Shown piece by piece: positions 50,403 through 64,000 of a stretch of DNA of 64,000 bases. The position numbers and the translations under genes were made by a program. Each line of letters opens with the position of its first letter. The first letter of the stretch is position 1. The notes under the pieces were generated by a model that had not been told where the DNA came from, did no database searches, and saw only the letters and a list, made by a program, of their open reading frames with translations. The DNA lies in NCBI RefSeq assembly GCF_021390325.1, contig NZ_JAJUWU010000007.1, positions 186,001 to 250,000 on the forward strand. Reading direction: 5' to 3'. The stretch is from Jiella avicenniae (GTDB taxonomy: Bacteria; Pseudomonadota; Alphaproteobacteria; Rhizobiales; Rhizobiaceae).

Positions 50403-50492
50403 GGAGAGGTGGCCGAGTGGTCGAAGGCGCTCCCCTGCTAAGGGAGTATACCGGAGACGGTATCGAGGGTTCGAATCCCTTCCTCTCCGCCA
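50403..50492 (+). tRNA. tRNA-Ser (anticodon GCT)
   Basis: The 90-base gene has acceptor arms GGAGAGG and CCTCTCC, the anticodon stem CTCCC-CTGCTAA-GGGAG with GCT, a long variable arm (TACCGGAGACGGTA), T-loop GGTTCGAATCC and encoded CCA. It is directly followed by an integrase gene, so its 3' end is the probable attachment site of the island. Confidence 0.97.
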
Positions 50493-50555: not shown

Positions 50556-50577
50556 GTGGTACACAAAGGTGGTACAC
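50556..50577. repeat. Direct repeat abutting the integrase start
   Basis: GTGGTACAC occurs twice (50556-50564 and 50569-50577) separated by AAAG, a 13-base period. The second copy touches the ATG and the AAAGGTGG overlap serves as ribosome site. It may be an integrase or excisionase arm/autoregulatory site. Confidence 0.4.
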
Positions 50578-52131
50578 ATGGTGTTGCAGATGGCCCGTCC
50601 TTGGAAGCATCCGAACAGCGGCGTCTATTATATTCGCGTCCGCGTGCCGACCGATCTGGTCGGCCTCGTCGGGCGGAGACTCGAGAAGCAGTCGCTTCGG
50701 ACGAAGGACGTCGGCGAAGCGCGGGTGCGCTTTTCGAAGTCGATGGCCGAAATCACCGAACGGTGGTCGAATCTTCGGGCTGGCCTCGTTCGTCCGACTT
50801 ACGAGCAGATGAACGCCTACAGCTCGGACTTCTTCAAGACCTACTGCCAGGAGATCGAGACTGGCCGATGGTCGCCATTCTGGGACGAGGCCTTCGGAGC
50901 GATCGCCGCCCAGTTCATCGAGCAGCCTGACGACGTTGCCGTCCATCAGGAGTTCCGACGGCATTGCGGTGACCAGATCAACACGTACTTCACCAGCCGC
51001 GGCATCCGGATCGCTCCGGAGATGCAGGGTGCTGTTGATCTGCGAATCGCGAAAGCGATTGTCGATGCCATTGGGGTCCGCACGAGACGCATCCTCGAGA
51101 ACGATTATGCGCTCGATCAAACGGAAGCCAAGTATCAGCGTCCCGCGTCAGCCGCCTCGAAGTCGAGCCTGAAGCTCGAACAAGCCTTCGAGACCTATGC
51201 CGACACGGTCAGCCTGTCGGCTGCGACACGAAAGCGCTGGCTGCCGGCACTTCGTACGCTGACCGCACATAGCGGCGTCGACGATCTTGCGCGGATTACC
51301 GACACCCATGTCAGCGGCTGGATCGAATGGCTGCGTTCAGAAGGCAAGGCACAGCGGACGATCAAAGATGTTTATCTCGCCTCGGCCAAGGCGTTGTTCC
51401 GCTACTATGTCGGCGAGCGGAAGCTGTCCGCCAATCCGATCGAGGGCTTCAGCGTCAGGGTCCCGAAGCGGCGGACGCTTCGAGGGCCAGGGCTGACCGA
51501 CGCTGAAGTCGAGATGATCCTCCACGGCACGCGGCAGACGCCGCCGGCCAAGCTCGCACCCTGCCATGTCGATGCCAGGAGATGGGTGCCTTGGCTTGCT
51601 CTCTACACCGGCGCCCGCGTTAACGAGTTGACCCAGCTTCGGAAAGCAGATGTCGCTCTTGTCGACGGCATCTGGTCGCTGACCATCACGCCCGAGGCCG
51701 GTAGTGTGAAGAACTATAAGGTCCGGGTGGTGCCGCTGCACGAGCATCTGATCGACCAAGGGTTCGTCGAGTTCGTGCATAGCTGTCGACGGTCGACGCT
51801 CTTCTATACGAGTGACCACAAGTCCGGGAAAGCGGTGCTCACACCGTACAAGAAGATGGGCGAGAACCTCGCAGCCTGGATCCGCGAGCTCGGCGTTTCT
51901 GATCCAAACGTCGCCCCGAATCATGGCTTCCGCCATCGGTTTAAAACCGTCGCGCGTCGCGTTGGGATGGACGCTGAGGTCCGGGACTATCTCCAAGGTC
52001 ATGCGCCCAGGACTGAGGGCGAACAATACGGCGAGTTTCCGACCACGATCCTGAAGTCCGCGATCGACCTCATTCCGGTTTGTGAAGACGCGGCACCTCT
52101 TGCAGCACGCGAGAATATCGAGACACCCTGA
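50578..52131 (+). CDS. Tyrosine recombinase/phage-type integrase
   Basis: The 517-residue product has an N-terminal DUF6538-like arm-binding part (PWKHPNSGVYYIRVRVPTDL), a core-binding SAM-like domain (about residues 205-300) and a catalytic domain with Arg347 (YTGARVNELTQL), His449-x-x-Arg452 (HGFRHRFK) and nucleophile Tyr484 (EQYGEF). It would integrate and excise the island at tRNA-Ser. The start is taken as ATG 50578; ATG 50590 (MARPWKHP) or GTG 50569 are alternatives. Confidence 0.93.
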   Translation: MVLQMARPWKHPNSGVYYIRVRVPTDLVGLVGRRLEKQSLRTKDVGEARVRFSKSMAEITERWSNLRAGLVRPTYEQMNAYSSDFFKTYCQEIETGRWSPFWDEAFGAIAAQFIEQPDDVAVHQEFRRHCGDQINTYFTSRGIRIAPEMQGAVDLRIAKAIVDAIGVRTRRILENDYALDQTEAKYQRPASAASKSSLKLEQAFETYADTVSLSAATRKRWLPALRTLTAHSGVDDLARITDTHVSGWIEWLRSEGKAQRTIKDVYLASAKALFRYYVGERKLSANPIEGFSVRVPKRRTLRGPGLTDAEVEMILHGTRQTPPAKLAPCHVDARRWVPWLALYTGARVNELTQLRKADVALVDGIWSLTITPEAGSVKNYKVRVVPLHEHLIDQGFVEFVHSCRRSTLFYTSDHKSGKAVLTPYKKMGENLAAWIRELGVSDPNVAPNHGFRHRFKTVARRVGMDAEVRDYLQGHAPRTEGEQYGEFPTTILKSAIDLIPVCEDAAPLAARENIETP

Positions 52132-52365: not shown

Positions 52366-52425
52366 TTCCTAGGAGCAGGAGGACGAACGCTAGAATCGTT
52401 GTTGTCATATGCCGGAGGGGCCAAT

Positions 52426-52770
52426 ATGGACAGGGCAAAAAAGCGAATACGAGAACGGAGCGCCTCATCTCGATACCGTGAAAAGAAGCGTGTGAACGGT
52501 ATTCCGGCTGATAATCGGATTGACCGTGAGATCGCGACGCTATTACTCGGCGACGTCCTCCGGCCTGGTGGCGAAGCAATTGATCAGAGTGTGCTACGCG
52601 AGCTCATCAAAGCAGTGGCGAACAGGTGCACGGCGGCGGCCGAACCGGACGTCGACGAGGCAGCGATAACCACAGCCGTACGTCGACGGATCGACCATTT
52701 GCTCCAAGAGAGGTCGTTTGAGGCGAACGGTTTGACAAAGGAAGTGGAGTCTCCGTCGGAATTCCACTAG
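52426..52770 (+). CDS. Hypothetical small basic protein
   Basis: The 114-residue product has a very basic N-terminus (MDRAKKRIRERSASSRYREKKRV) followed by mostly helical sequence with conserved-looking IDREIATLLLGDVL and AAITTAVRRRIDHLLQ. GGAGGGG lies before the ATG at 52426, downstream of the double-dyad operator. No family recognised. The size, charge and operator would suit a small DNA-binding or regulatory protein. That is inference. Confidence 0.6.
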   Translation: MDRAKKRIRERSASSRYREKKRVNGIPADNRIDREIATLLLGDVLRPGGEAIDQSVLRELIKAVANRCTAAAEPDVDEAAITTAVRRRIDHLLQERSFEANGLTKEVESPSEFH

Positions 52771-53027: not shown

Positions 53028-53642
53028 TCAAGTATGCGACGTGACGCCGGAAGCTCCAAGATCGCGAGGTGAGAAGGGCGGGTTAGTTGTCCGCCCCGAT
53101 GCCGGCTCAGGGAGAAAGATCGGCGATGACGGGCCATTGGTAGAGGGGGGCGCCGAATGGGCGACGTTCTCCTCGGAAGCGTTCCGGCTGAGGGCGATTG
53201 CTGGAACCTCTTCTTCGACTATGAGAGAAGGAATACCGTCTGCCTGCCGATGCCTGTCGCGCTTCGTTTCATCCATCCCCTCGACCGTCCCCCCCGAGAC
53301 CTTGGCGGATGCGCGGTTTCGAATGGGGTCGAATTCAGAGGCTTCGTCCGAAGCCCTCACGTGCTGAACTTCGGTCACTTTCTCGGCATTCTCATGGATG
53401 CCGAGCAGGTTTTCGATCATGGTCCGGACGTCTGCGCTTCGGACCTTGATCGATGCCTCCTGAAGGATGGCCTCCGCCGTCGGCACATCGCCCCTCTTCA
53501 GCAGAGAGGTGGTCGCTTTGCCGATTTCCGTGATCGCGCGGATCTGAATTTCGCGGACAGCCTGCGTCAGCTTCGCCGCTGCCGCCCTTGCGCGCCTTTC
53601 ATGCGTGATCTTTTTTTCGGTCAGCGCGGCGATGCTGGTCAT
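53028..53642 (-). CDS. Hypothetical protein, coiled-coil N-terminus and disordered tail
   Basis: The 204-residue product has a helical, basic N-terminal part (about residues 1-90; EKKITHERRARAAAAKLTQ, IQIRAITEIGKATTSLL) and a low-complexity polar C-terminus. AGGAG lies eight bases before the ATG at 53642; a longer start at 53699 is less likely. No family is recognised. It is the last gene of the minus-strand island set, separated from the AAA+/M41 gene by 234 A/T-rich bases that probably contain its own promoter. Confidence 0.6.
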   Translation of the reverse strand: MTSIAALTEKKITHERRARAAAAKLTQAVREIQIRAITEIGKATTSLLKRGDVPTAEAILQEASIKVRSADVRTMIENLLGIHENAEKVTEVQHVRASDEASEFDPIRNRASAKVSGGTVEGMDETKRDRHRQADGIPSLIVEEEVPAIALSRNASEENVAHSAPPSTNGPSSPIFLPEPASGRTTNPPFSPRDLGASGVTSHT

Positions 53643-53876
53643 CAAACGATCTCCTATGCAGTCTCGAATGATGGTTAATGATTCGCTAAGTCGAGTCAAA
53701 AGAATTCTTATCTATCTGATTGTAGTGGATTTTTTTCTCCCTTGGTCCTGTGCAGAGAGCGTCTTTCGTCCTCTTCGAGAGTGTGGTCGATCTACGACCG
53801 AGACGTCGAGCTGGGATCAAAACGCGCGCGATCCGCTGATGCTGTTTGCATCACTGTCCTTTCGTGAGGCAGAAGG

Positions 53877-55832
53877 TCAGGTGCAGAGAAAGCCCTTTCC
53901 GGCCGCGAACCACCGGAGTGTCTCTTTTGGAAGCACCCTCGTCTCAATAGCTAGGCTCGCGAGCGAGAGGATGGCGTCTCGATTCTTGAGGACCAGAATC
54001 GTCGCTTCTCCGTAAAGACGCCGGAGGCGTGCCTCGATGGTCCCGCGTTCGGAGGCGCCCGGCGCGAGAAATGCCCCGAGCCCGAAAGTTCCTTCGATTT
54101 TTCGAAGGATTGTCGCCGCCGCATCGAGATCGCCGTGTGCTCCGGCGGACGGCACCCCCAGAATGATTTCTTCTGCGGCTCGGCCACAAAGGAGCGGCAG
54201 GAGCTGGCGTTCGAAGTCCGTAAGGCAGGCTTCGTCGGAGCCCCTGGCGTAGAGCACGGATCCCGCGATACCATCTCGTGCTACGAGCGACAGGCACTCC
54301 GGCAAAATGCCCGCGAGCATCATCGCGATGGCGTGTCCGGATTCATGAACAGCGATACGCCACACGATAGCAGGACTGCGGTTCTCAGGAGGCAGGGCGA
54401 GGTCAAGAAGATCGCGTGCCGTGACAGAACGCCCCTCGCGTCGCGCGATCCTGTTCGCGTCACGTGCGATCCGGGCGACATCGGCACCGGTCAGGGTGCC
54501 GGCAAGCGCGGTTGCGACCCTGCCTATTTCTGATTCGTCGGCGTCGGGGACATAGTCTCGCAGGATCCCGCCGAGCGCCTCGGTATCGGGCATGCCGATG
54601 AAGAATCTCCGATCCAGGCGCCCAGAGCGCATGACTGCTGGATCGAGTCCGCGATCGTCATTGCAGGCGCCGATCAAGACCACGCCTGAGGTTCGCAGAC
54701 TACCGTCCGCACACTCCAAAAAAGCATTCACGATCGGGCGGAACCAAGCAGCATGGTCGGATCCGGGATATGCATTGCGGCTCGGCATTGAGTCGATCTC
54801 ATCGACGAACAGGATGCACGGCGCGATCTCGACGGCCTTGTCGAAGCTGGCCCGCATCGCCTTGATCAGCGTGCCCATATGCGCTTCACCCGACGCCTGC
54901 CATTGGGCATAAGACGTCGCTATCAAAGGGACCCCGCAGGTCGCAGCGAGAGCAGTTGCAAACCGTGTTTTTCCGGCCCCAGGTGGACCAACTAGCAGCG
55001 CTCCGCGATCGACATCGTCCCAATCGAGCCGGCCCGCCTTATAAGCTTCGATATCCCTAGCGAGATCGAGACCCCATGTAGCCGCATCGCCATAGCCATG
55101 TGTCGTGGACAGATGGGGCTCGGTGGGATGGAGCGGCTCGATGACAGACGGCGTCCGCCAGGTCGTCGCGGAGGATGCCCGCGACGACCGGGCTTCACGC
55201 GCGGCCCTTTCTCGATCTGCGCGATTATGTTGTCTTTCTTCGAGCCAACGCGCCACGCGCAGGCGCCGCAGCCAAGCCACGGCGTCAGCGGGGGTTGAAG
55301 CGCGGCTGACCGCGATCGGGAGAAACGCAGGATCGATCCGCATTGGTCGGAGCGGGCGCGGTTGGCTTGGCCAGATCGCCTGCAACAGGGCCTCTAGATG
55401 CTCCAGCGGACACAGATCAATCCGAACGTCAGCGAGTAGCGCTGCAAGGCCGCCGGTCGCCTCTCCGCCGTCTTCGAAAATCACGACGTGAGACCAAGAA
55501 AGTCTCCTCAGGATGGACGCGGAATTCGCCCGGTGCGCTCGCAGGTCCTGCGCGGTGCGAATTTCGAGGTTCTGACCAAGGAGCGAGGTCGTTGCGGCAC
55601 CAGCCGCGTCGACCCACTCGCTGTCGAGCTTGACGATCGCGCAGATCTTGCGCCCGGTGCGTTCGTGCTGCGCGGCGAAGTCCGACAGCGGCTGAAGCGC
55701 CCTTTCGCAAAGCCACTGTGCGGGTGCCGTGCGTGGATCGGCCTTCACGATGGGCTTCGTCGTCTCGGATAGATCAATGGAGAGATCGTCCAATCCGACC
55801 GAACGCTTGGAAATGCGAGAAAACTTACTCAA
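53877..55832 (-). CDS. AAA+ ATPase fused to M41-type zinc metalloprotease (soluble FtsH-like)
   Basis: The 651-residue product has an uncharacterised N-terminal region (about residues 1-240), an AAA+ module with Walker A GPPGAGKT (Lys288), Walker B CILFVDEIDSMP and arginine-finger region MRSGRLDRRFFIG, then a peptidase domain with the zinc motif HESGH (His496, Glu497, His500) and the later Asp in GDLDAAATIL, as in FtsH. Unlike FtsH it has no membrane helices, so it should be cytoplasmic. It is about the size of FtsH but with a different N-terminus. Probably degrades protein targets in an ATP-driven way; targets unknown. Confidence 0.85.
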   Translation of the reverse strand: MSKFSRISKRSVGLDDLSIDLSETTKPIVKADPRTAPAQWLCERALQPLSDFAAQHERTGRKICAIVKLDSEWVDAAGAATTSLLGQNLEIRTAQDLRAHRANSASILRRLSWSHVVIFEDGGEATGGLAALLADVRIDLCPLEHLEALLQAIWPSQPRPLRPMRIDPAFLPIAVSRASTPADAVAWLRRLRVARWLEERQHNRADRERAAREARSSRASSATTWRTPSVIEPLHPTEPHLSTTHGYGDAATWGLDLARDIEAYKAGRLDWDDVDRGALLVGPPGAGKTRFATALAATCGVPLIATSYAQWQASGEAHMGTLIKAMRASFDKAVEIAPCILFVDEIDSMPSRNAYPGSDHAAWFRPIVNAFLECADGSLRTSGVVLIGACNDDRGLDPAVMRSGRLDRRFFIGMPDTEALGGILRDYVPDADESEIGRVATALAGTLTGADVARIARDANRIARREGRSVTARDLLDLALPPENRSPAIVWRIAVHESGHAIAMMLAGILPECLSLVARDGIAGSVLYARGSDEACLTDFERQLLPLLCGRAAEEIILGVPSAGAHGDLDAAATILRKIEGTFGLGAFLAPGASERGTIEARLRRLYGEATILVLKNRDAILSLASLAIETRVLPKETLRWFAAGKGFLCT

Positions 55833-56041
55833 AACGGCTCCTTCGCTTTGATATTCGGCTTCGCCGTGTATGGCGGACCTCGGTCCCGACCTGTCGGGCG
55901 AGCGTTAATGGCCCGGGCGGTCAGTGATTTCGCTAGCTCTGCGGTTCGCGCAGCCTATTGGTCGACCGCACGGCTGGTGCGCTGCATGTCAGATGAAAAA
56001 CGACGTGATGGCGGACGGACAATGTCGCCATGGCCGCACGG

Positions 56042-56419
56042 TTACCTGTCAACGCCGGATGAGTGGACGCTGCAATTAAGGGATGCGCCGAACTGATCGA
56101 AGCACAAGCCGTCGACGCGCCACAGTCGGGAATACGACCGAACCCATCGAGCTTGCGGATCGATGGCGTAAATCCGCGAGGTCACAGCCCTACCCGGTCC
56201 CACGAGCGGATGCCCGGTTACGATCCCGGCCAGTCGAACCGCGACAGGATCGGCGACGAGAACGACATCGGAGATGAGCGGCGCCGCGGCGAGTTCTTCG
56301 GGCGTCGGACCACGCTCCGCGGCGTACCGGTGGAGATCATCGACGAGGTTCTGGAGCGTCCGCCGATCTTCGGCCTCGGCGCCAAGAAGGATGCCGGGTG
56401 CCTGATATGGTGTAGGCAT
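56042..56419 (-). CDS. DUF6634-like hypothetical protein
   Basis: The 125-residue product contains LQNLVDDLHRYAAERGPTPEELAAAPLI and the block RLAGIVTGHPLVGPGRAVTSRIYAIDPQARWVRSYSRLWRV. This resembles the small DUF6634 family common in alphaproteobacterial mobile elements, judged from memory. AGGAGG lies before ATG 56419, which shares one base with the stop of the upstream gene (TGATG), showing coupling. Function unknown. Confidence 0.6.
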   Translation of the reverse strand: MPTPYQAPGILLGAEAEDRRTLQNLVDDLHRYAAERGPTPEELAAAPLISDVVLVADPVAVRLAGIVTGHPLVGPGRAVTSRIYAIDPQARWVRSYSRLWRVDGLCFDQFGASLNCSVHSSGVDR

Positions 56420-56787
56420 CACTGCTCCTCCTTGACGCTGCTTCCGGCCGTATCGGACGAAGCCAAATCGGCGTCCGAGTCCACACGCAGGTAGTCGAGG
56501 ACAAGCCGGGCGGTCGGATCGCCTTCGTCCGCATAGCCCGCGACGTATCGGATCAGGCGCCAGTGTTCGCCCGGCGAGAGGACGCCGAGGTGGCAGAGGC
56601 GAATGGCTGCACCGATGATGGTGGCTGGATCGAAGGCGAGAATATCTGCGGTCGGGCGATCGTCGTCGAAGTCCTGCTCGAAGGTCTCCGCAGTGGCCGG
56701 GCCGCGCGAGGTGAGACGCGTATGCGCGTTGCGATCGGCCGCACGCACATGGTCGGGTTCGCCGTCGTTGTTGTATCTGCTGGTCAT
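56419..56787 (-). CDS. Hypothetical protein, 122 residues
   Basis: The product is acidic and mostly helical, with FDPATIIGAAIRLCHLGVLSPGEHWRLIRYVAGYADEGD in the centre. The start is ATG at 56787 with GGAAC nearby; the frame is open further upstream through the end of the next gene but loses protein-like composition. It is coupled to the DUF6634-like gene downstream. No family recognised. Confidence 0.6.
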   Translation of the reverse strand: MTSRYNNDGEPDHVRAADRNAHTRLTSRGPATAETFEQDFDDDRPTADILAFDPATIIGAAIRLCHLGVLSPGEHWRLIRYVAGYADEGDPTARLVLDYLRVDSDADLASSDTAGSSVKEEQ

Positions 56788-56980
56788 TTCGTGTGTTCCA
56801 ATGACGAAAAGAGGCTGGTCTGGGCGGGCGCCAGAGGCGATCGGGCTTGGTCCGGTTTCCCTTCGAATAGAAATGCCGGGATCGACCGCCAGGACGGCTT
56901 CACGATCCGGCAGCGAATGCCGGATCGTGGGGCAGAGGTCGTGGAAAGCGCTGTGCGTGGACCGGCGCTTTGACGCCTTG

Positions 56981-58033
56981 CTAGTGCATGCGGCGCAGGC
57001 CGCTCTGGCGTCGGCGCTCGGCGATGCCGATGAAGCGCGAGAGATCGACGGGAGGTAATGAAAGCCCTGCGTTGCAAGCGTCCCGTCCCGTAGTCTTGCG
57101 ATCCTGATCAACGGCGGCGCCGCTCGATGCGCCCCCATCGCGGTCGTCACCTTCGTCCACGTCCGTCGGGCCGGTGTCAGGAGAGAGCGTTGCGGCAAGC
57201 TGGCGGATCGCCGGTCCCATCCGGTGGAGGAGCGCGGCGCGGACGGTCTCATCAAGGTGGTCGAGAAAGCGTCGGGAGGGGACACCGAATGCTGCGTCGA
57301 TCTCGTCGGGCCCCACGGTCATGGTCGGCTCGTGGCCGGTTTTTCCGTAGCGATCGATGACGCTTACAGAGACGCTCGCGACGTCATAGCCTGCGGCCAG
57401 TAGTGCTCGCCTTGCGGTGAGGGCGACGATACGCAGGCGGTTGATGGTCTCCGCGCAACGCGTCCCGGAGAAAACGCAGCCACCACGCTTGACCTCATGG
57501 ATTGACGCGTGTCGCGTGGTCTCGTCGATGACGACGAGATCAGCGGCCCATGTCCCGATCACGTGCAGGTCGTGCGGCAGGGTTGCCACGACATTCCGCC
57601 TGTTTGCCGTGACGAGCTCGGTCGCGGCTTGTGTCATCGGCAACGGATACTCGCGCAGCACGGTCAGCGCCGGATCCTGACGCAGGACTTCGGCGATCAC
57701 GTCCGGGATCACCTTTCCGACGCGGCTGATGACCGAGCGCAGCATGCTCGCCAGAGACGACATCTCGCCGAGCATGGGATCGGGACCGAGGCTTTCACCC
57801 ACCGCGATCGCGGCATTGACGATCTCGAGTGCGGTCGTTTCGACGAAGGCCACGACCGGATCCGTCCCAGCGTTGCCGGGCACGGCACAGTGCCGGAAAG
57901 GCCCGGCGTTGAAGGGGGCGCAAGGATCGACGCGGGAGTGGCCGGTCCCGTCGGTCTGACTGGTTTGAGCCTCGCGATCGCGATCGGCGAAACGATGGGA
58001 GCGGGAAGACGAGGATTTGTGCGTACGAGCCAT
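56981..58033 (-). CDS. Hypothetical protein with possible PD-(D/E)XK nuclease motif
   Basis: The 350-residue product is unrecognised. Its middle contains WAADLVVIDETTRHASIHEVKRGG, with Asp165, Glu180 and Lys182 arranged D-x14-E-V-K at the ends of two predicted strands, as in PD-(D/E)XK nucleases. Upstream helices (about residues 55-130) and a polar, disordered tail surround it. AGGAG precedes the ATG. It lies in the minus-strand island set ahead of the 122-aa and DUF6634-like genes. The nuclease reading is an inference from one motif. Confidence 0.6.
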   Translation of the reverse strand: MARTHKSSSSRSHRFADRDREAQTSQTDGTGHSRVDPCAPFNAGPFRHCAVPGNAGTDPVVAFVETTALEIVNAAIAVGESLGPDPMLGEMSSLASMLRSVISRVGKVIPDVIAEVLRQDPALTVLREYPLPMTQAATELVTANRRNVVATLPHDLHVIGTWAADLVVIDETTRHASIHEVKRGGCVFSGTRCAETINRLRIVALTARRALLAAGYDVASVSVSVIDRYGKTGHEPTMTVGPDEIDAAFGVPSRRFLDHLDETVRAALLHRMGPAIRQLAATLSPDTGPTDVDEGDDRDGGASSGAAVDQDRKTTGRDACNAGLSLPPVDLSRFIGIAERRRQSGLRRMH

Positions 58034-58278
58034 AGGAACTCCTGCCGGCGAGGCCGGACTCTAAGGGAATAGGAGATAGACCACGCCCGTTCGCACAATC
58101 GGTCGCGATCGTGCGGGAGCTGTGTCTGTTGAGGTGGGAAGCGGCGACCGGGGTCGGGTCGCGGACGGCGTCCGTGAGCAGCGCAAGCTACTTCAGCGAA
58201 AGCCCGATTGCCTTCGCTTGGATTTGCGGCTTGGGGGATCGGAAGCCCAAGGGGTGGTTTGATCCTCGCCGCACGGCC

Positions 58279-59091
58279 TTACGGGCGTGTCCGCGTGACC
58301 GTCAGGCCGGAGGCCGTATCGACGAGGCGGACAAGGCCGATTGCCGAGAGCTTGGCGCAGAGCGCGGACAAGTACTCGTCACGCGTCGGACACGTGGCGC
58401 GATCGAGGTCGAGCATACGGTTCCCCGCGGCGTCGCAAGTCCGCGAAAGATCGAGGCGGCACAAGAGCTGCCGGCTATCGCGGATCTCCTCTGGAGAAAA
58501 GACCGGACCGTAGGCCGCCGACGGCAAAGCCGGTACGCTGACCTCAGCAGGTTCTGCGAGGTGCTGCTCCACCGCGGAATCTTCGTCGTCGCGGAGCTGA
58601 AGACGGGCGGTGCAGTGCTGTCCCCTCTGGGACAGGTCGCGCATGTCCGGATTGTCACCGGAGACCAAGGAGCGCGCGTCGGTGGAGGAAGAAGCGCTGT
58701 CGCCGCCGCCGTGCGCGTCCTGCGCCGTGCCCATCAACCACCGCTTCATGTCCTCAGGAAGATCGTCGATCTCGTCGATCCGCCGGATCGGACCGAGGCC
58801 GGTGACGTAAGGGCGCCCGGCGACGACGCGCGTGCCGATCTCCGGCCATTCCGGCTGGATGCGCGAACTGCGGCTGAGGCCGTTTGCGAGGTCGTGGGGG
58901 GTACGGACGCTATCGTTGGACATGAATGTGTCCACGTCTCGCGCGCCGGGATCGCTCGCCGGACCGACAATGGTGTCCGGGGACGAGGCCACGCTGTCGG
59001 AGTGTGCGACCTCCGAACCGTCGATGCAGGGATAGAAGGTGAAATTACGCTTGCACGGTTCGTCCGTGCGCGCCAAAAGGCACTTAGCCAT
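58279..59091 (-). CDS. Hypothetical protein, 270 residues
   Basis: The product has three N-terminal Cys residues (Cys4, Cys13, Cys22), a long polar middle and a C-terminal helical domain (PVFSPEEIRDSRQLLCRLDLS; YLSALCAKLSAIGLVRLVDTASG) that could be a small winged-helix-like fold. GAGAGG precedes ATG 59091; the frame opens 57 bases earlier without a good site. It heads the minus-strand island set and is divergent from mcrB. Function unknown. Confidence 0.6.
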   Translation of the reverse strand: MAKCLLARTDEPCKRNFTFYPCIDGSEVAHSDSVASSPDTIVGPASDPGARDVDTFMSNDSVRTPHDLANGLSRSSRIQPEWPEIGTRVVAGRPYVTGLGPIRRIDEIDDLPEDMKRWLMGTAQDAHGGGDSASSSTDARSLVSGDNPDMRDLSQRGQHCTARLQLRDDEDSAVEQHLAEPAEVSVPALPSAAYGPVFSPEEIRDSRQLLCRLDLSRTCDAAGNRMLDLDRATCPTRDEYLSALCAKLSAIGLVRLVDTASGLTVTRTRP

Positions 59092-59501
59092 GCTGATCCT
59101 CTCATACAGGTCAGTTGTGGTCAGGTCGCTGGCGGGACTGCAATCCATGCCGGCGGCCGCTCCGAGCGGACGCCTGCGACATCACCTATAGTCGGACGCG
59201 GGATTGCGACCGATAATGACAACGTGGGACACGGGCGGCGCAAAGTCTAGTCGCCGCGGCGAGGCGTTGCTAACACGGTTAATGCCACGTCTTCCGATTG
59301 CTTTGGATCCTTGACAGCCCAGCAGGCTATTCACGCCGAAGTTGCCCGAACGGGGCGTAGCAGGTGTTCCAAGGCCGATGGGCACTGCCGTCAGAAGTGT
59401 CGTTCGTAATTTTCACCGAAATCGTAAGACGGGTTCAAGCGGTCGAACAGACGCGACTGGTGCATGAGCGTAGCGAGTTGCCTGAGTTTGGAGACATTTG
59501 A
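59092..59501. other. Divergent promoter region before mcrB
   Basis: These 410 bases separate the 270-aa gene (minus) from mcrB (plus) and should hold both promoters. I see no clear gene or strong hairpin; an open frame reaching into mcrB on the minus strand is a shadow. Confidence 0.4.
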
Positions 59502-62500
59502 ATGTGGGAGAATTTCGAGGCTCGCCTCGATGAAAATGACCGTGACCGGCCTCTGCCGCTGCGCCGGGCGCTTTTCGACGTGTTTCGCGGCTCGGGTCTC
59601 CGCCCGGGTGATGGCGTCACCAAGAAAATGGCTTCCTTTGAATTCAGCGCGGGTAAGCGCCTCCTTTGGGAAATTCAGAACCCGGTCAACGTCTTTCTCC
59701 ACGTAAAGTGGTTCGATCGCGCCGAGGCGAACGGCTTCGTCGGCGAACTGCGGCCGTATCAGAGTGGCATGAAGGACGGCGGGCGGCATTCCGCCCTCAG
59801 CCGCGACTGGTCCTTTGGCGACGCTGACTGCTTCGTCTTGCGGATCGAGAACGCGGAGGCCCTGCGAAGACTGCTGGGGGCGTTATTGGAATTCGACAAT
59901 GCCTTGGTTCTCGATCCGGCGGCGGTCGTGCGCTGGATCGAGCGGCTGCGCCATTTCTTCCCCGCCCTCGATGGTTTCGATCGACCCGATCCGCAGTTCG
60001 ACGAGGCCGAGCGGAGCTATAAGCTTGACGTTGCAGTCGAACTGAAGACCGCGGTCACGCAGTCCAGATCCGATCAGGAGCTGGCTGATGCTGTCAACAC
60101 CGCCCTCGGCAAAAGCAATCTGCTGCAGTGGCGCACCTATTGGCCGATGTCGCCTAAGGGCGATGCCGATCGCGAAAGGCTCTGGCCGGCCTTGCGCGAG
60201 CTCCTCAATGCGGCACTTGGTGCAGCAGACGGTCACCCTGTGGCTCTCGAAGCCTTTGCAAACGTCTGGATCGCATCCGTCCCGGATGCCAAGCCGGATG
60301 CAGCCCGCCAGATCGGCGAATTCCTGTTCCTCCATCTCGCCCCCGACGCGGGCATCTATATCCGCCATTCCGTGCGCCAGGATCTCTGGCTGGAAGCTGT
60401 GGGCAGTCGGTTCCCCGATCATACGTCGATGGCTGACACCTATCGCGACGAATGGCGCTTCATGGAGGCGGTGCGCCGCGCTTTCGCGGCTCAGGGGCTG
60501 GCGCCACGCGACATGATCGATGTGCAAAGCGCGCTTTGGGTCGTCCATAACTACAAGGAGGAGGATGTGGAAGCCTTTTCGCGCGACGCGATCGAGGCGG
60601 CAATGGACGCCTTTGACGGCTATCCCGAGTCAGGCGAGCACGCCGCCATCTTCGGTAGTTTCGGAGAGCCCCGCGATCTTTGGGTGAGGTCGACCAAGGA
60701 TCGTCCGAACCGAGTTTATCCGACGAAGCCGATCGTCGCCTATCTCCTCGGTCACACCGACATTCACGGGGGATGGAACAGGCCAAGCGGGCCGGCCGCC
60801 CGTCTTCATAACTCCGGGTACATCATAACCGATCACGCTGACCGTCCCCGCCCGATCCCGGATCGCGAATTCCTCGTTCGGGGAGCTGATCGTATCCGGT
60901 CGTGCGCTCGCAACTACTATGTCGCACCGGCTCGCGAGAAAGGTGCAGCGGAGGTCGCGATCCGCGCCGGCGACCTTGGGCGCGATATGGCTCTGCACGA
61001 TCGTCATCCAGCGATCTGTAGCGCGCTCGGGAGCGAGGAATTCCAGCGAGATGCCCAGGTGTCGCGGCCGACGCATACATTGCCCAATCCCAGCATTACC
61101 ACCGTCTTCACCTATCAGCTCGCCTCGGCGGAAGGGCAAGAGACTATGACCTTTGAACCCGCTATCGAAATGGCGAACACCACCAACCTCATCCTCTACG
61201 GCCCGCCGGGAACCGGCAAGACCTACGCCACGGCCTGGGAGGCGGTGCGCCTTTGCCTGGGCGACGCCGCGGCCGAACCGCTGCGGGGTGACCGACATGA
61301 CCTGATGACCGAGTACCACCGGCTCGCGAAGGAAGGCCGGATCGAGTTCGTCACCTTTCACCAGTCCTTTTCCTACGAGGATTTTGTCGAGGGGCTACGT
61401 CCAACGACGACAGCCAATCAAGAAGGCGACGATGAGGACGCCAGCACTTCAGGCGGTTTCAGCCTCGATCCCCATGACGGCGTATTCAAGGTCATCAGCG
61501 AGAAAGCACGGCTCGACACCGGCGACGCGCCAGCTAAGCGGCTCGACCGCTCACGCTCGATCTACAAGATCGCGCTCGGCCAACGCGACAGCCAGGAAGA
61601 CCGCATCCGTGAAGGCCTGGACAGCGGTCTAATCCATCTCGGCTGGGGTGGCGATATCAACTGGTCCGACGAACGCTTCGACGATTTCGAAGAGATCCGC
61701 AAGACATGGAACGAGCAAAAGGACGCTCAAGCATCCGGCAAGGATCCCAATATCGAAGTGCTGTACGCCTTCCGATCTGGCCTGCAGATCGGTGACTATG
61801 TGGTCATCTCTGACGGTCGTGACAGCTATCGCGCATTCGGCCGCGTGAGTGGCGAATACTATTTTGACAGCGACGCTGAATTCCACCCGCATCGGCGGAA
61901 GGTCGAATGGATTTGGCGTAACGACGATGGAGCTAAACGCGCGCCTTTTTACAGCCGCAACTTCCGCCGCCAATCGGCCTATCGACTTGATCCGAGTCAG
62001 ATCGACTGGGACGCGGTCGAAGCAGTGGTAATCGATCCGAATGCCGAGCTGCCGATGTCTAGTGCACGGCCACATGTCTTGATCATCGACGAGATAAACC
62101 GGGCCAACATCTCCAAGGTCTTCGGTGAGCTAATCACCCTGCTCGAGGTCGACAAGCGGCTTGGCTGCAAGAACGAGGTCAGGGTCCGGCTTCCCTATTC
62201 GGGAACGAGTTTCGGCGTGCCGGCCAACCTCCACATCATTGGCACGATGAACACGGCGGATCGTTCTATCGCGCTGCTCGACACGGCCCTGCGCCGCCGC
62301 TTTACCTTCCGCGAACTGATGCCAGACGTCGAAGAACTTCGCCAAGCGATGGCGGCTCGCCAGCTCGATGCCACCAATCTCGACGGGATCGATATATGCA
62401 AGCTGCTGCAAACTCTAAACGAGCGGATCGAATATCTCTTCGATCGCGAACACCAGATCGGCCACGCCTACTTTACGGGCTGCACCACACGGGCCGATGT

Positions 62501-62729
62501 CGAAGACGTCATGCGCCATAAAGTCATTCCGCTGCTGGCGGAGTATTTCTATGAAGACTGGTCGAAGGTCGCCGCAGTGCTCGGCGATGGCGATGGGACC
62601 AGAGGTTCGCATTTCCTCGAAGCCAAACGGTTGGTGGCACCAGCCGGCTTCGCCGATGATGAACTGGGTGGGGACAAGCTGCGCTGGAGCGTGAAGGACG
62701 CTTTCGATTTCTCGGACTTCTCGGCCTGA
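59502..62729 (+). CDS. mcrB: McrB-type AAA+ GTPase/ATPase of a modification-dependent restriction system, extended
   Basis: The 1075-residue product combines a long N-terminal region (about 1-555) with a McrB-family AAA+ module: Walker A GPPGTGKT (Lys573), Walker B VLIIDEINRAN (Asp863, Glu864) and the McrB signature GTMNTADRSIALLDTALRRRF. E. coli McrB has under 100 residues between Walker A and B; here there are about 290. The extra part (about 685-806; YKIALGQRDSQEDRIREG, LIHLGWGG, GLQIGDYVVISDG, YRAFGRVSGEYYF) resembles an EVE/PUA-like small beta-barrel. GGAG precedes the ATG. It overlaps mcrC by one base. It powers DNA translocation for the McrC nuclease. Confidence 0.88.
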   Translation: MWENFEARLDENDRDRPLPLRRALFDVFRGSGLRPGDGVTKKMASFEFSAGKRLLWEIQNPVNVFLHVKWFDRAEANGFVGELRPYQSGMKDGGRHSALSRDWSFGDADCFVLRIENAEALRRLLGALLEFDNALVLDPAAVVRWIERLRHFFPALDGFDRPDPQFDEAERSYKLDVAVELKTAVTQSRSDQELADAVNTALGKSNLLQWRTYWPMSPKGDADRERLWPALRELLNAALGAADGHPVALEAFANVWIASVPDAKPDAARQIGEFLFLHLAPDAGIYIRHSVRQDLWLEAVGSRFPDHTSMADTYRDEWRFMEAVRRAFAAQGLAPRDMIDVQSALWVVHNYKEEDVEAFSRDAIEAAMDAFDGYPESGEHAAIFGSFGEPRDLWVRSTKDRPNRVYPTKPIVAYLLGHTDIHGGWNRPSGPAARLHNSGYIITDHADRPRPIPDREFLVRGADRIRSCARNYYVAPAREKGAAEVAIRAGDLGRDMALHDRHPAICSALGSEEFQRDAQVSRPTHTLPNPSITTVFTYQLASAEGQETMTFEPAIEMANTTNLILYGPPGTGKTYATAWEAVRLCLGDAAAEPLRGDRHDLMTEYHRLAKEGRIEFVTFHQSFSYEDFVEGLRPTTTANQEGDDEDASTSGGFSLDPHDGVFKVISEKARLDTGDAPAKRLDRSRSIYKIALGQRDSQEDRIREGLDSGLIHLGWGGDINWSDERFDDFEEIRKTWNEQKDAQASGKDPNIEVLYAFRSGLQIGDYVVISDGRDSYRAFGRVSGEYYFDSDAEFHPHRRKVEWIWRNDDGAKRAPFYSRNFRRQSAYRLDPSQIDWDAVEAVVIDPNAELPMSSARPHVLIIDEINRANISKVFGELITLLEVDKRLGCKNEVRVRLPYSGTSFGVPANLHIIGTMNTADRSIALLDTALRRRFTFRELMPDVEELRQAMAARQLDATNLDGIDICKLLQTLNERIEYLFDREHQIGHAYFTGCTTRADVEDVMRHKVIPLLAEYFYEDWSKVAAVLGDGDGTRGSHFLEAKRLVAPAGFADDELGGDKLRWSVKDAFDFSDFSA

Positions 62730-64000
62730 TGCCGGCCTATACGCTTCGTGAATGGGACAAGCTCGCCCATGGCGAGGGCGAGGGGCAGATCGCGGTTCAC
62801 CATGCCGACCGGCTGGCGGGGCTCGCCGCCCGCTCGAGCTTTGCCGGGCGCGGCGGCAGCGGGGTGCTCGAACATGGCCGGCACGCCTTGCGCGCCGGCG
62901 GCGTGGTCGGGATCCTCGCGGCGGGCGATGCAAGCCTGGAGATCCTGCCGAAGATCGATGCGGCACCCGGCGAGACGACCGATCGCCAGAATGCGGCGAT
63001 CCGCAAGCGCCTGGTGCATATGCTGGCCGTCGCGCTCGATCTGAAGATCGATCTCGGCGTCATTACCGATCTCGCCTGGCAGCGTGAAACCCTGCTGGAA
63101 ATCCTGGTCTGCATTTTTTGCGACAAGCTGACCGAAGCCCTGCGCAAGGGCATGCCGCGCCGATATGTGGGCTGCGACGACGACTTGCCGACCTTGCGTG
63201 GTCAGCTCGACGTGACCCGCCAATTCACCCAGCATGCGGTCAACCCGTCGCGGCTTGCCTGCCATTTCGATCTACTGTCCGACGACATGCCGCTGAACCG
63301 GATCATGAAGGCAGCCGTGTTGCATCTGTCTCGCCTCTCGCGGCGCAGCGCCAACCAGAAACGCCTGCGCGAGCTCGCCTTCGTTTATTCCGACATCGCC
63401 GATATCCCGGTGTCCGCGTTGCGGTGGGATCAGGTCGTCATCGACCGCACCAACCGATCGTGGAAGGAGCTGTTCGCCATGGCGCGGCTCTTCCTTAACG
63501 ACCGCTATCAGACGACGACAGGAGGACGGGGCGAAGGCACCGCCATGCTGTTCGAGATGAACGCGTTGTTCGAAGAGTATGTCGGGCGGCTGATCGTTCG
63601 CGCACTGGCGGGGACCGAGCTGACGGTTTCCCTGCAGGGCGGTCGCCTTTCCTGCCTGAGTGTAGAGAATAGCGAACGCGGCCTATTCCAGACCAAGCCG
63701 GACATCCTGATCCGCCACGGGACACGAGTCGTCCACGTCATCGACACCAAGTGGAAGCGGATATCCTCGCGGATCGACGATCCCAAGCAGGGCGTGTCGC
63801 AGGGCGATGTCTATCAGATGATGGCCTATGCCCAGCTTTACGGCGCACCGCGCCTGACGCTGCTCTACCCCCACCATACGGGGCTGGGTGCCGAAGACAC
63901 GGTCCACGGGCGTTATCGCATCACCGGGCAGGATACGATCCTGGAGACGGCGAGCATCGATGTGGCGAACGGCGCCGGCATGCTGATGCGGCTTCGGCGT
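62729..64000 (+). CDS. mcrC: McrC-type PD-(D/E)XK nuclease subunit, cut by window end
   Basis: The frame is open for 424 codons to the last base of the window, so the stop is not seen; most of the protein should be present. It begins MPAYTLREWDKL and has the McrC nuclease motif TKPDILI ... VIDTKWK with Asp325, Asp339 and Lys341, preceded by LFEMNALFEEYV. McrC cuts DNA when driven by McrB. It starts in the mcrB stop (TGATG), so both are translated together. Confidence 0.9.
   Translation, partial: MPAYTLREWDKLAHGEGEGQIAVHHADRLAGLAARSSFAGRGGSGVLEHGRHALRAGGVVGILAAGDASLEILPKIDAAPGETTDRQNAAIRKRLVHMLAVALDLKIDLGVITDLAWQRETLLEILVCIFCDKLTEALRKGMPRRYVGCDDDLPTLRGQLDVTRQFTQHAVNPSRLACHFDLLSDDMPLNRIMKAAVLHLSRLSRRSANQKRLRELAFVYSDIADIPVSALRWDQVVIDRTNRSWKELFAMARLFLNDRYQTTTGGRGEGTAMLFEMNALFEEYVGRLIVRALAGTELTVSLQGGRLSCLSVENSERGLFQTKPDILIRHGTRVVHVIDTKWKRISSRIDDPKQGVSQGDVYQMMAYAQLYGAPRLTLLYPHHTGLGAEDTVHGRYRITGQDTILETASIDVANGAGMLMRLRR

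Follow-up and report, generated by a model that had tools for sequence, protein, structure and literature searches.

The locus examined here raises two questions: whether a run of genes lying beside a restriction system forms one functional unit, and which purpose such a unit might serve. It lies in a 64,000-nucleotide stretch of the Jiella avicenniae genome (contig NZ_JAJUWU010000007.1, positions 186,001 to 250,000, hereafter the window), where six minus-strand genes, here called A to F, had been predicted to form a new phage-defence or island-maintenance system beside McrBC. All six open reading frames (ORFs) were found at 53028-59091, with the predicted sizes of A (270 aa) and B (350 aa) and the D-x14-E-V-K motif of B. 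The conserved unit, however, consists of the five genes A-B-C-D-E (59091-53877, minus strand) and a structured RNA (59117-59188) that was absent from the gene set first described. What is shown for this module is its gene order, protein families, relatives, partner exchange, neighbouring defence genes and shared leader. In our judgement, there is an even chance that it is a mobile-island module acting against phages or rival mobile elements.

Conservation of the Five-Gene Unit in the Genus

Within the genus, the order A-B-C-D-E is kept at four loci, which are the window, a second copy on contig C25 of the same genome (L029), and one locus in each of two other species (L198 in genome G399 and L091 in genome G349). 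Proteins of the second copy share 38% (A), 48% (B), 39% (C), 59% (D), and 44% (E) identity with those of the window, with alignment z-scores of 13.9, 86.2, 15.8, 53.2, and 133.9, respectively, against 200 shuffles. The corresponding identities are 47, 64, 50, 73, and 71% at L198. At L091 they are 27% (A), 40% (B), 56% (D), and 45% (E), and C was detected there solely by tblastn using the C25 protein. The predicted coupling of C to a DUF6634-like protein is present as the overlap of C and D (Table 1), and D scores 46.1 bits to PF20339 (5.9e-12) against a curated cut-off of 27, which places it in DUF6634.

No homologue of F was identified by tblastn in the fetched stretches of L029, L091, and L198, and the comparison of F with the nearest ORF at L029 gave a z-score of 1.2 (200 shuffles). 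Because no F was found in these stretches of the three other A-B-C-D-E loci, the six-gene set was not confirmed and F was rejected as a member of the system. The integrase and McrBC genes do flank the set in the window as predicted, but the integrase, the small gene at 52399-52770, McrB, and F were all missing from the L198 stretch. Neither McrB nor McrC turned up at L198, L091, or L029, and the integrase trace in the L091 stretch is one weak 59-aa match.

Gene E is present (E-value up to 1e-50) in nine of the ten genus genomes and B in five. Four of the 14 E places in the genus carry A-B-C-D, five have a TnsA-like partner (L118, L202, L203, L204, and L207), two (L205 and L206) show the order B-small gene-E-D, and three (L199-L201) have other neighbours. 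In L205, L206, L208, L035, and L106, the small gene that separates B from E appears C-like by eye.

Table 1. Positions of the module, its leader RNA and flanking features in the window.
Feature	Position	Strand	Remarks
Structured RNA (three-way junction), 5′ leader	59117..59188	-	covariance models R1/R2; ends 25 nt before the A start codon
Gene A, 270 aa	58279..59091	-	no known family; family scan used the longer ORF 59148-58279
Gene B, 350 aa	56981..58033	-	PD-(D/E)XK-like motif D-x14-EVK; putative nuclease
Gene C, 122 aa, small protein	56419..56787	-	overlaps D (TGATG)
Gene D, 125 aa, DUF6634	56042..56419	-	PF20339; start overlaps C stop
Gene E, 651 aa, AAA+ ATPase fused to M41 zinc metalloprotease	53877..55832	-	PF00004, PF01434
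Gene F, 204 aa, coiled-coil-like	53028..53642	-	outside the conserved unit
tRNA-Ser(gct), context	50403..50492	+	
Tyrosine integrase, context	50569..52131	+	DUF6538 + Phage_integrase
McrB-like GTPase, divergent neighbour, context	59502..62729	+	NCBIfam McrB model 2.2e-34, below its cut-off
McrC, context	62729..64000	+	PF10117 1.8e-69; continues beyond the window end

A Structured Leader RNA Shared Among Modules

The approximately 165 nt upstream of A are 83% identical between the window and L198, while the A proteins are 47% identical. Each of the four A-B-C-D-E loci has a leader, and all four leaders fold into a three-way junction. Single-sequence folds were not exceptional for the window, L091, and L029, for which 16, 11, and 21 of 200 shuffles, respectively, folded as well; no shuffle did so for L198 and L156, and seven did for L154, which adopts another fold. 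Among the four A-B-C-D-E leaders, the fold clearly beats shuffles in L198 alone, and covariation on the four-sequence alignment by itself was not significant.

A covariance model (R1) was built from these four leaders, with no other module type in training. Over 138 loci it gave 12 further matches at E-values up to 0.03, comprising L205, L206, eight places upstream of modules that join E to a GIY-YIG-like gene (L079, L156, L094, L154, L111, L102, L152, and L146), and two places elsewhere (L016 and the control L179). The match in L079 overlaps the start of the called GIY ORF. In an alignment of 14 sequences, which were picked after the positions had been seen and were fitted to the structure, 16 of 23 base pairs change on both sides (43 cells); the shuffle means are 8.2 pairs and 12.9 cells, 0 of 500 shuffles reached as high, and slid versions of the structure gave at most seven pairs.

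A second model, R2, gave 20 matches over 90 loci at E-values up to 0.021. A further 48 loci, among which were 20 chromosomal controls, gave matches at L205, L206, and the plasmid locus L190 (0.016), with the best control at 0.13. The L190 match sits downstream of its E. All 22 matches besides L190 are on the module strand with the E start 0.5-3.3 kb downstream, and they are followed by A, B (directly or past small ORFs), a GIY-like gene, or E itself. Fourteen of the 22 are training sequences, and eight are not (L090, L082, L155, L098, L075, L035, L143, and L112). The window leader scores 88.3 bits with R1 and 80.4 bits with R2, its sequence belonging to both training sets. A scan of 297 whole genomes with R2 yielded 20 matches in 14 genomes at E-values up to 0.001, some matches being lost because strict filters were used. 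Sixteen of these 20 lie at E modules (13 known modules, nine of them training sequences, and three places beside GIY/E fragments at contig ends), one lies at a contig end with no assigned module, and three lie at long unrelated ORFs. If the reading as a conflict module is right, the leader covariance model would offer a means of finding such modules in any genome.

No Rfam family reaches its curated score at the loci tested. The Plasmid_R1162 antisense RNA family (RF00043) matched the leaders of two orthologous modules at 35.9 and 38 bits and was rejected as an assignment, these scores being below its gathering score of 55; it had no match at E-values up to 0.05 at the other nine module loci scanned. 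RF00043 is also an antisense RNA family, whereas the RNA described here is the leader of a protein operon. One snoRNA match on the opposite strand was judged to be due to chance. A hairpin after the junction that would hide the Shine-Dalgarno sequence looked convincing by eye, but was rejected when one of seven sequences beat shuffles at the 5% level.

An RNA of this kind might act in trans, as part of a toxin-antitoxin-like or guide-like system in which the module proteins bind it and, following infection, E breaks down an unstable component. The first gene behind this RNA varies (A, a GIY-YIG-like gene, E, or small genes followed by B), its three-way junction shows covariation, and in some modules 241-487 nt separate it from the first called ORF. 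At the A-B-C-D-E loci and in two of the GIY modules, however, its end is 23-28 nt ahead of the start codon, in keeping with a cis-acting leader, and the modules with TnsA-like and metallophosphoesterase partners have no leader match at E-values up to 0.02. We therefore regard a trans-acting RNA as improbable. Similarly low credence is given to a ribonucleoprotein immune module, in which the junction RNA would be a module-bound sensing or antitoxin RNA that releases or directs a soluble AAA+/M41 protease with exchangeable degenerate nuclease-fold adaptors. That the protease of such a ribonucleoprotein strips and degrades DNA-bound proteins of phages or rival transposons appears just as doubtful. 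In the preferred reading as a defence module, the leader would decide the timing of module translation, and its presence makes the regulation question directly testable.

Domain Content of the Module Proteins

The original prediction of E as a soluble AAA+/M41 protein agrees with its predicted domains, AAA (PF00004, 3.2e-24) and Peptidase_M41 (PF01434, 5.3e-11). The sequence contains a Walker A motif (GPPGAGKT) at residue 282, HESGH at residue 496, and GAHGDLDAA, and the expected third zinc ligand is present. No transmembrane-like stretch was detected in E, in which the highest 19-residue Kyte-Doolittle mean is 1.71 at residue 500, within the protease domain.

Like FtsH (TIGR01241), E has an AAA domain followed by an M41 domain with HExxH, which raises the question of whether it is a spare FtsH-like protease that serves quality control or stress responses together with adaptors, as cargo unrelated to conflict. 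The FtsH-like domains, the match of 147.1 bits to TIGR01241, and the occurrence of E in nine of ten genus genomes would fit such a role. That score is nevertheless far below the FtsH cut-off of 600, and E lacks a membrane anchor, has its own N-terminal 230 aa and keeps fixed partners; its family is patchy across the order and is joined to several different nuclease-fold partners. A quality-control role is thus considered very unlikely.

Searches with E matched 79 phage records, all below 60% identity. Seven of the 20 listed matches bear an FtsH-type name and the others lack a name or annotation; the remaining 59 records probably include 14 records of Rhodobacter capsulatus phages. The viral contigs scanned with B and with E contained no relatives of either protein.

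In the alignment of the B family (14 members), D165 is invariant, the lysine is kept in 12 of 14, and 10 of 14 have D, N, or S in place of the glutamate. The motif reads EVK, EVK, ECR, and ECI at the four A-B-C-D-E loci, so the catalytic lysine is lost in two of four. The structure prediction proposed for this 350-aa protein was run with AlphaFold2 from a single sequence and proved unusable (predicted local distance difference test, pLDDT, 41.8); the order of helices and strands is at most compatible with a PD-(D/E)XK fold. B was rejected as a TnsA homologue, there being no match to TnsA profiles. A single-sequence AlphaFold2 model of D reached a pLDDT of 40.3, and hits of the DUF6634 profile (26 members aligned) to PDB sequences were judged to be chance.

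The Pfam, NCBIfam, and PADLOC scans were conducted on the longest ORFs, and the scanned versions of A, C, D, and F begin further upstream than the genes in Table 1. No family in these databases covers A, B, or C. In Pfam, A, C, and F had no match at E-values up to 1, and the sole match of B was to SUKH-4 (0.12, below cut-off). NCBIfam and PADLOC gave nothing convincing for A, B, C, D, or F; no PADLOC model matched these five at E-values up to 1, except REase_II to F (0.024), which was judged to be chance.

Exchange of Partners Around E

Across the order, DUF6634 was surveyed and found in 38 of 397 genomes and B in 11 of 297. The survey of E listed 123 places, of which the 71 strongest were taken as the E family and the 52 weaker ones (<137 bits) were assumed to be FtsH, two of them being kept in the set anyway. 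Genes at the fetched loci were predicted with a simple caller of our own and then clustered. The resulting E cluster comprises 95 genes, 78 with HExxH and 40 with a DUF6634 gene in the same run. Beside DUF6634, E relatives in Alphaproteobacteria have an exchangeable partner, either B or a protein of the GIY-YIG-like, TnsA-like (winged-helix), or metallophosphoesterase kind. A B, TnsA-like, GIY-YIG-like, metallophosphoesterase, or exonuclease gene occurs in 63 of the 95 E runs, a count that includes runs whose sole such gene is the transposon's own downstream TnsA. GIY-like genes lie upstream of E at 20 places and TnsA-like genes at 19 (15, plus four of a weaker family at 65% probability). A partial check for scattered homologues, or for homologues in conjugation or phage structural operons, left the core of the original prediction standing: the gene order recurs at four loci, and for 48 of the 53 called DUF6634 genes an E lies no more than 4 kb away in the same orientation.

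The GIY-YIG label is based on one below-cut-off Pfam match (0.0013) and on the RefSeq names of homologues. A TnsA-type C-terminal winged-helix domain is common to transposon TnsA, the TnsA-like partners, and five GIY-like partners. The GIY-YIG-like proteins of L150, L154, L156, and L079 have a TnsA-type winged-helix domain near the N-terminus. Most aligned TnsA-like partners keep PDF and lack the catalytic lysine, as judged by eye. The degenerate triads of B and of the TnsA-like partners favour binding over cutting there, and hence the reading of the module as a DNA-directed unfoldase-protease.

In an E tree built by a quick method, with rows lacking a partner class excluded, the partner class switches at least 12 times. 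The window E clusters with those of L029, L091, and L118 (value 99), and the E of L118, which has a TnsA-like partner and Tn7-like genes, is sister to that of the C25 copy (value 100). Between L204 and L118, the TnsA-like-E cassette is 81-93% identical and the adjacent Tns core genes are 39-46% identical, and the cassette therefore appears to move on its own. At L204:8724-10705 (G399:C4), where Tn7-like genes adjoin, the E of the TnsA-like-E cassette is split into two reading frames and its partner is intact.

Association With Tn7-Like Genes

Families f2, f4, f6, and f8 correspond to TnsA, TnsB, TniB, and TniQ (PF00665/PF09299, PF05621, and PF06527), TnsA (f2) being assigned by position and by the RefSeq annotation of a similar operon. 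Of the 32 TnsB places in 397 genomes, 11 are no more than 5 kb from an E gene and 13 no more than 10 kb, against approximately 0.03 expected under uniform placement; this enrichment is biased upward because the TnsB query came from an E-adjacent locus. No TnsA, TnsB, TniB, or TniQ was identified in the window module by Pfam scans, and no TnsB in genome G000 at E-values up to 1e-20.

These neighbours bear on a second purpose, element maintenance, in which E would be an element-encoded unfoldase that takes apart or controls recombination complexes, in the manner of ClpX and Mu, and the TnsA-like, B, or GIY-YIG partners would mark the DNA complex, serving transposition or island stability instead of immunity. 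The TnsB enrichment, the winged-helix domain of TnsA in the TnsA-like and five GIY-like upstream partners, the position of B near TnsABC-TniQ on a Methylobacterium plasmid, and the integrase adjoining the window module would all be expected of such a role. TnsB is nevertheless in the downstream run of just 12 of 95 E runs, the cassette is found beside different Tns cores, and at L198 the integrase does not accompany A-E. Element maintenance keeps a minor probability, ranking second as a purpose, because E relatives of the genus have quite different partners, some of them beside Tn7-like genes.

Defence Genes in the Neighbourhood

The window module faces McrB and McrC, and PADLOC gives no match to the McrC fragment. 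The next 13 kb past the window (C46:250077-263040, equal to L158:77-13040) encode an HNH protein, a DrmMI-like methyltransferase, a DpdE/DrmD-like SNF2 helicase, and a DruE-like helicase. Among ten hand-picked flank proteins of the genus, PADLOC identified LmuA and LmuB of Lamassu (L198), DruE2 of Druantia (L202), HerA (L207), and a weak pVip (L203); the other five had no match. Plasmid records matching E number 1035. An annotated defence-type gene is present in 9 of 14 hand-picked plasmid regions, including CBASS beside a B without E, a Kiwa-like gene with an S8/ATP-binding pair, ABC-3C, TIR, and Abi; in four of the 14 the defence-type gene is a DNA methyltransferase. PADLOC matched 243 models among 150 of 639 flank proteins, against 14 among 150 of 360 control proteins, a count that is inflated by redundant GajB models and is taken as a hint alone. 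In agreement with the predicted phage-defence pattern, the module here and several of its relatives have defence genes close by.

Proposed Role and Relation to Known Systems

We hold with moderate confidence that defence is the likeliest purpose of the module. E would assemble into a soluble AAA+ ring for unfolding and degrading proteins, and B, as a degenerate PD-(D/E)XK-like protein, might recognize a DNA or nucleoprotein target together with A, C, and D and hand it to E. Foreign DNA-bound complexes could thus be stripped and destroyed, or a toxic activity released. In related modules, a GIY-YIG-like, TnsA-like (winged-helix), or metallophosphoesterase partner would stand in for B.

Several observations weigh against this reading. 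Thirteen E relatives that form one clade lack HExxH and keep DUF6634 (L075, L089, L090, L094, L098, L102, L030, L092, L104, L076, L083, L103, and L114); these are ATPase-only versions, and proteolysis is therefore not always needed. Hits of the B profile to PDB sequences were judged to be chance, giving B no credible relative of known fold. E is more constant in the genus than most defence genes, and the 13 TnsB places within 10 kb of E would fit a transposon-linked role too. Five of the 14 plasmid regions have no annotated defence gene, and in one of these five, on a Rhodovastum plasmid (L190, H8), the E relative adjoins phage terminase and portal genes, making this locus a possible phage-plasmid or prophage. 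Genes of islands often neighbour defence genes, and for this reason the defence context is weak proof.

Known systems resemble the module in part. The AAA domain of E matches PADLOC IetA (2.7e-19), and IetAS likewise employs an AAA+ ATPase that works with a protease. The IetA match, however, is limited to the AAA domain (profile positions 125-305 of 374), NF042959 gives 71.9 bits against a cut-off of 510, E carries its M41 metalloprotease in cis and has other partners, and no subtilase partner IetS was found among the nine region proteins scanned. As in Tn7 TnsA/TnsC, related modules pair an AAA+ protein with TnsA-type winged-helix proteins, but the window module is without Tns genes, B misses the TnsA profiles, and the AAA+ family of E differs from TniB/TnsC. 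The module resembles McrBC in having an NTPase and a putative PD-(D/E)XK-like protein, PD-(D/E)XK being the fold of McrC; McrBC is nonetheless encoded by separate genes next door in the window.

The module may represent an undescribed defence system. In the literature searched, we found no paper mentioning DUF6634, none on IetAS, and none joining M41 peptidases with defence islands or anti-phage activity, Tn7-like elements with FtsH cargo, or GIY-YIG with noncoding RNA; a term search of the main texts of two Tn7 papers (PMC8649781 and PMC10293859) did not return "FtsH". If the defence reading is true, the module would be an unnamed alphaproteobacterial conflict module with one AAA+ metalloprotease, interchangeable nuclease-fold partners, and often a shared structured RNA. 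It would also tie Tn7-type TnsA domains to the biology of defence islands and provide a context for DUF6634.

Flanking Features of the Window and Second Locus

The proposed integrase-borne island is in line with the tRNA-Ser and integrase at one flank. A search for a repeat of the tRNA-Ser end that might mark its limits found none in the window, on the remainder of the contig, or, by exact search, in the genome. Just past the end of the window, C46:250077-263040 forms a mixed DISARM/Dpd/Druantia-like cluster that adjoins McrBC. Genes resembling istA/istB of the IS21 type (by eye) lie near the C25 copy of A-B-C-D-E, at L029:15697-17852. The small plus-strand gene at 52399-52770 weakly resembles a family of approximately 111 aa that adjoins E modules in other genomes (hhalign E-value 0.0013, probability 19%).

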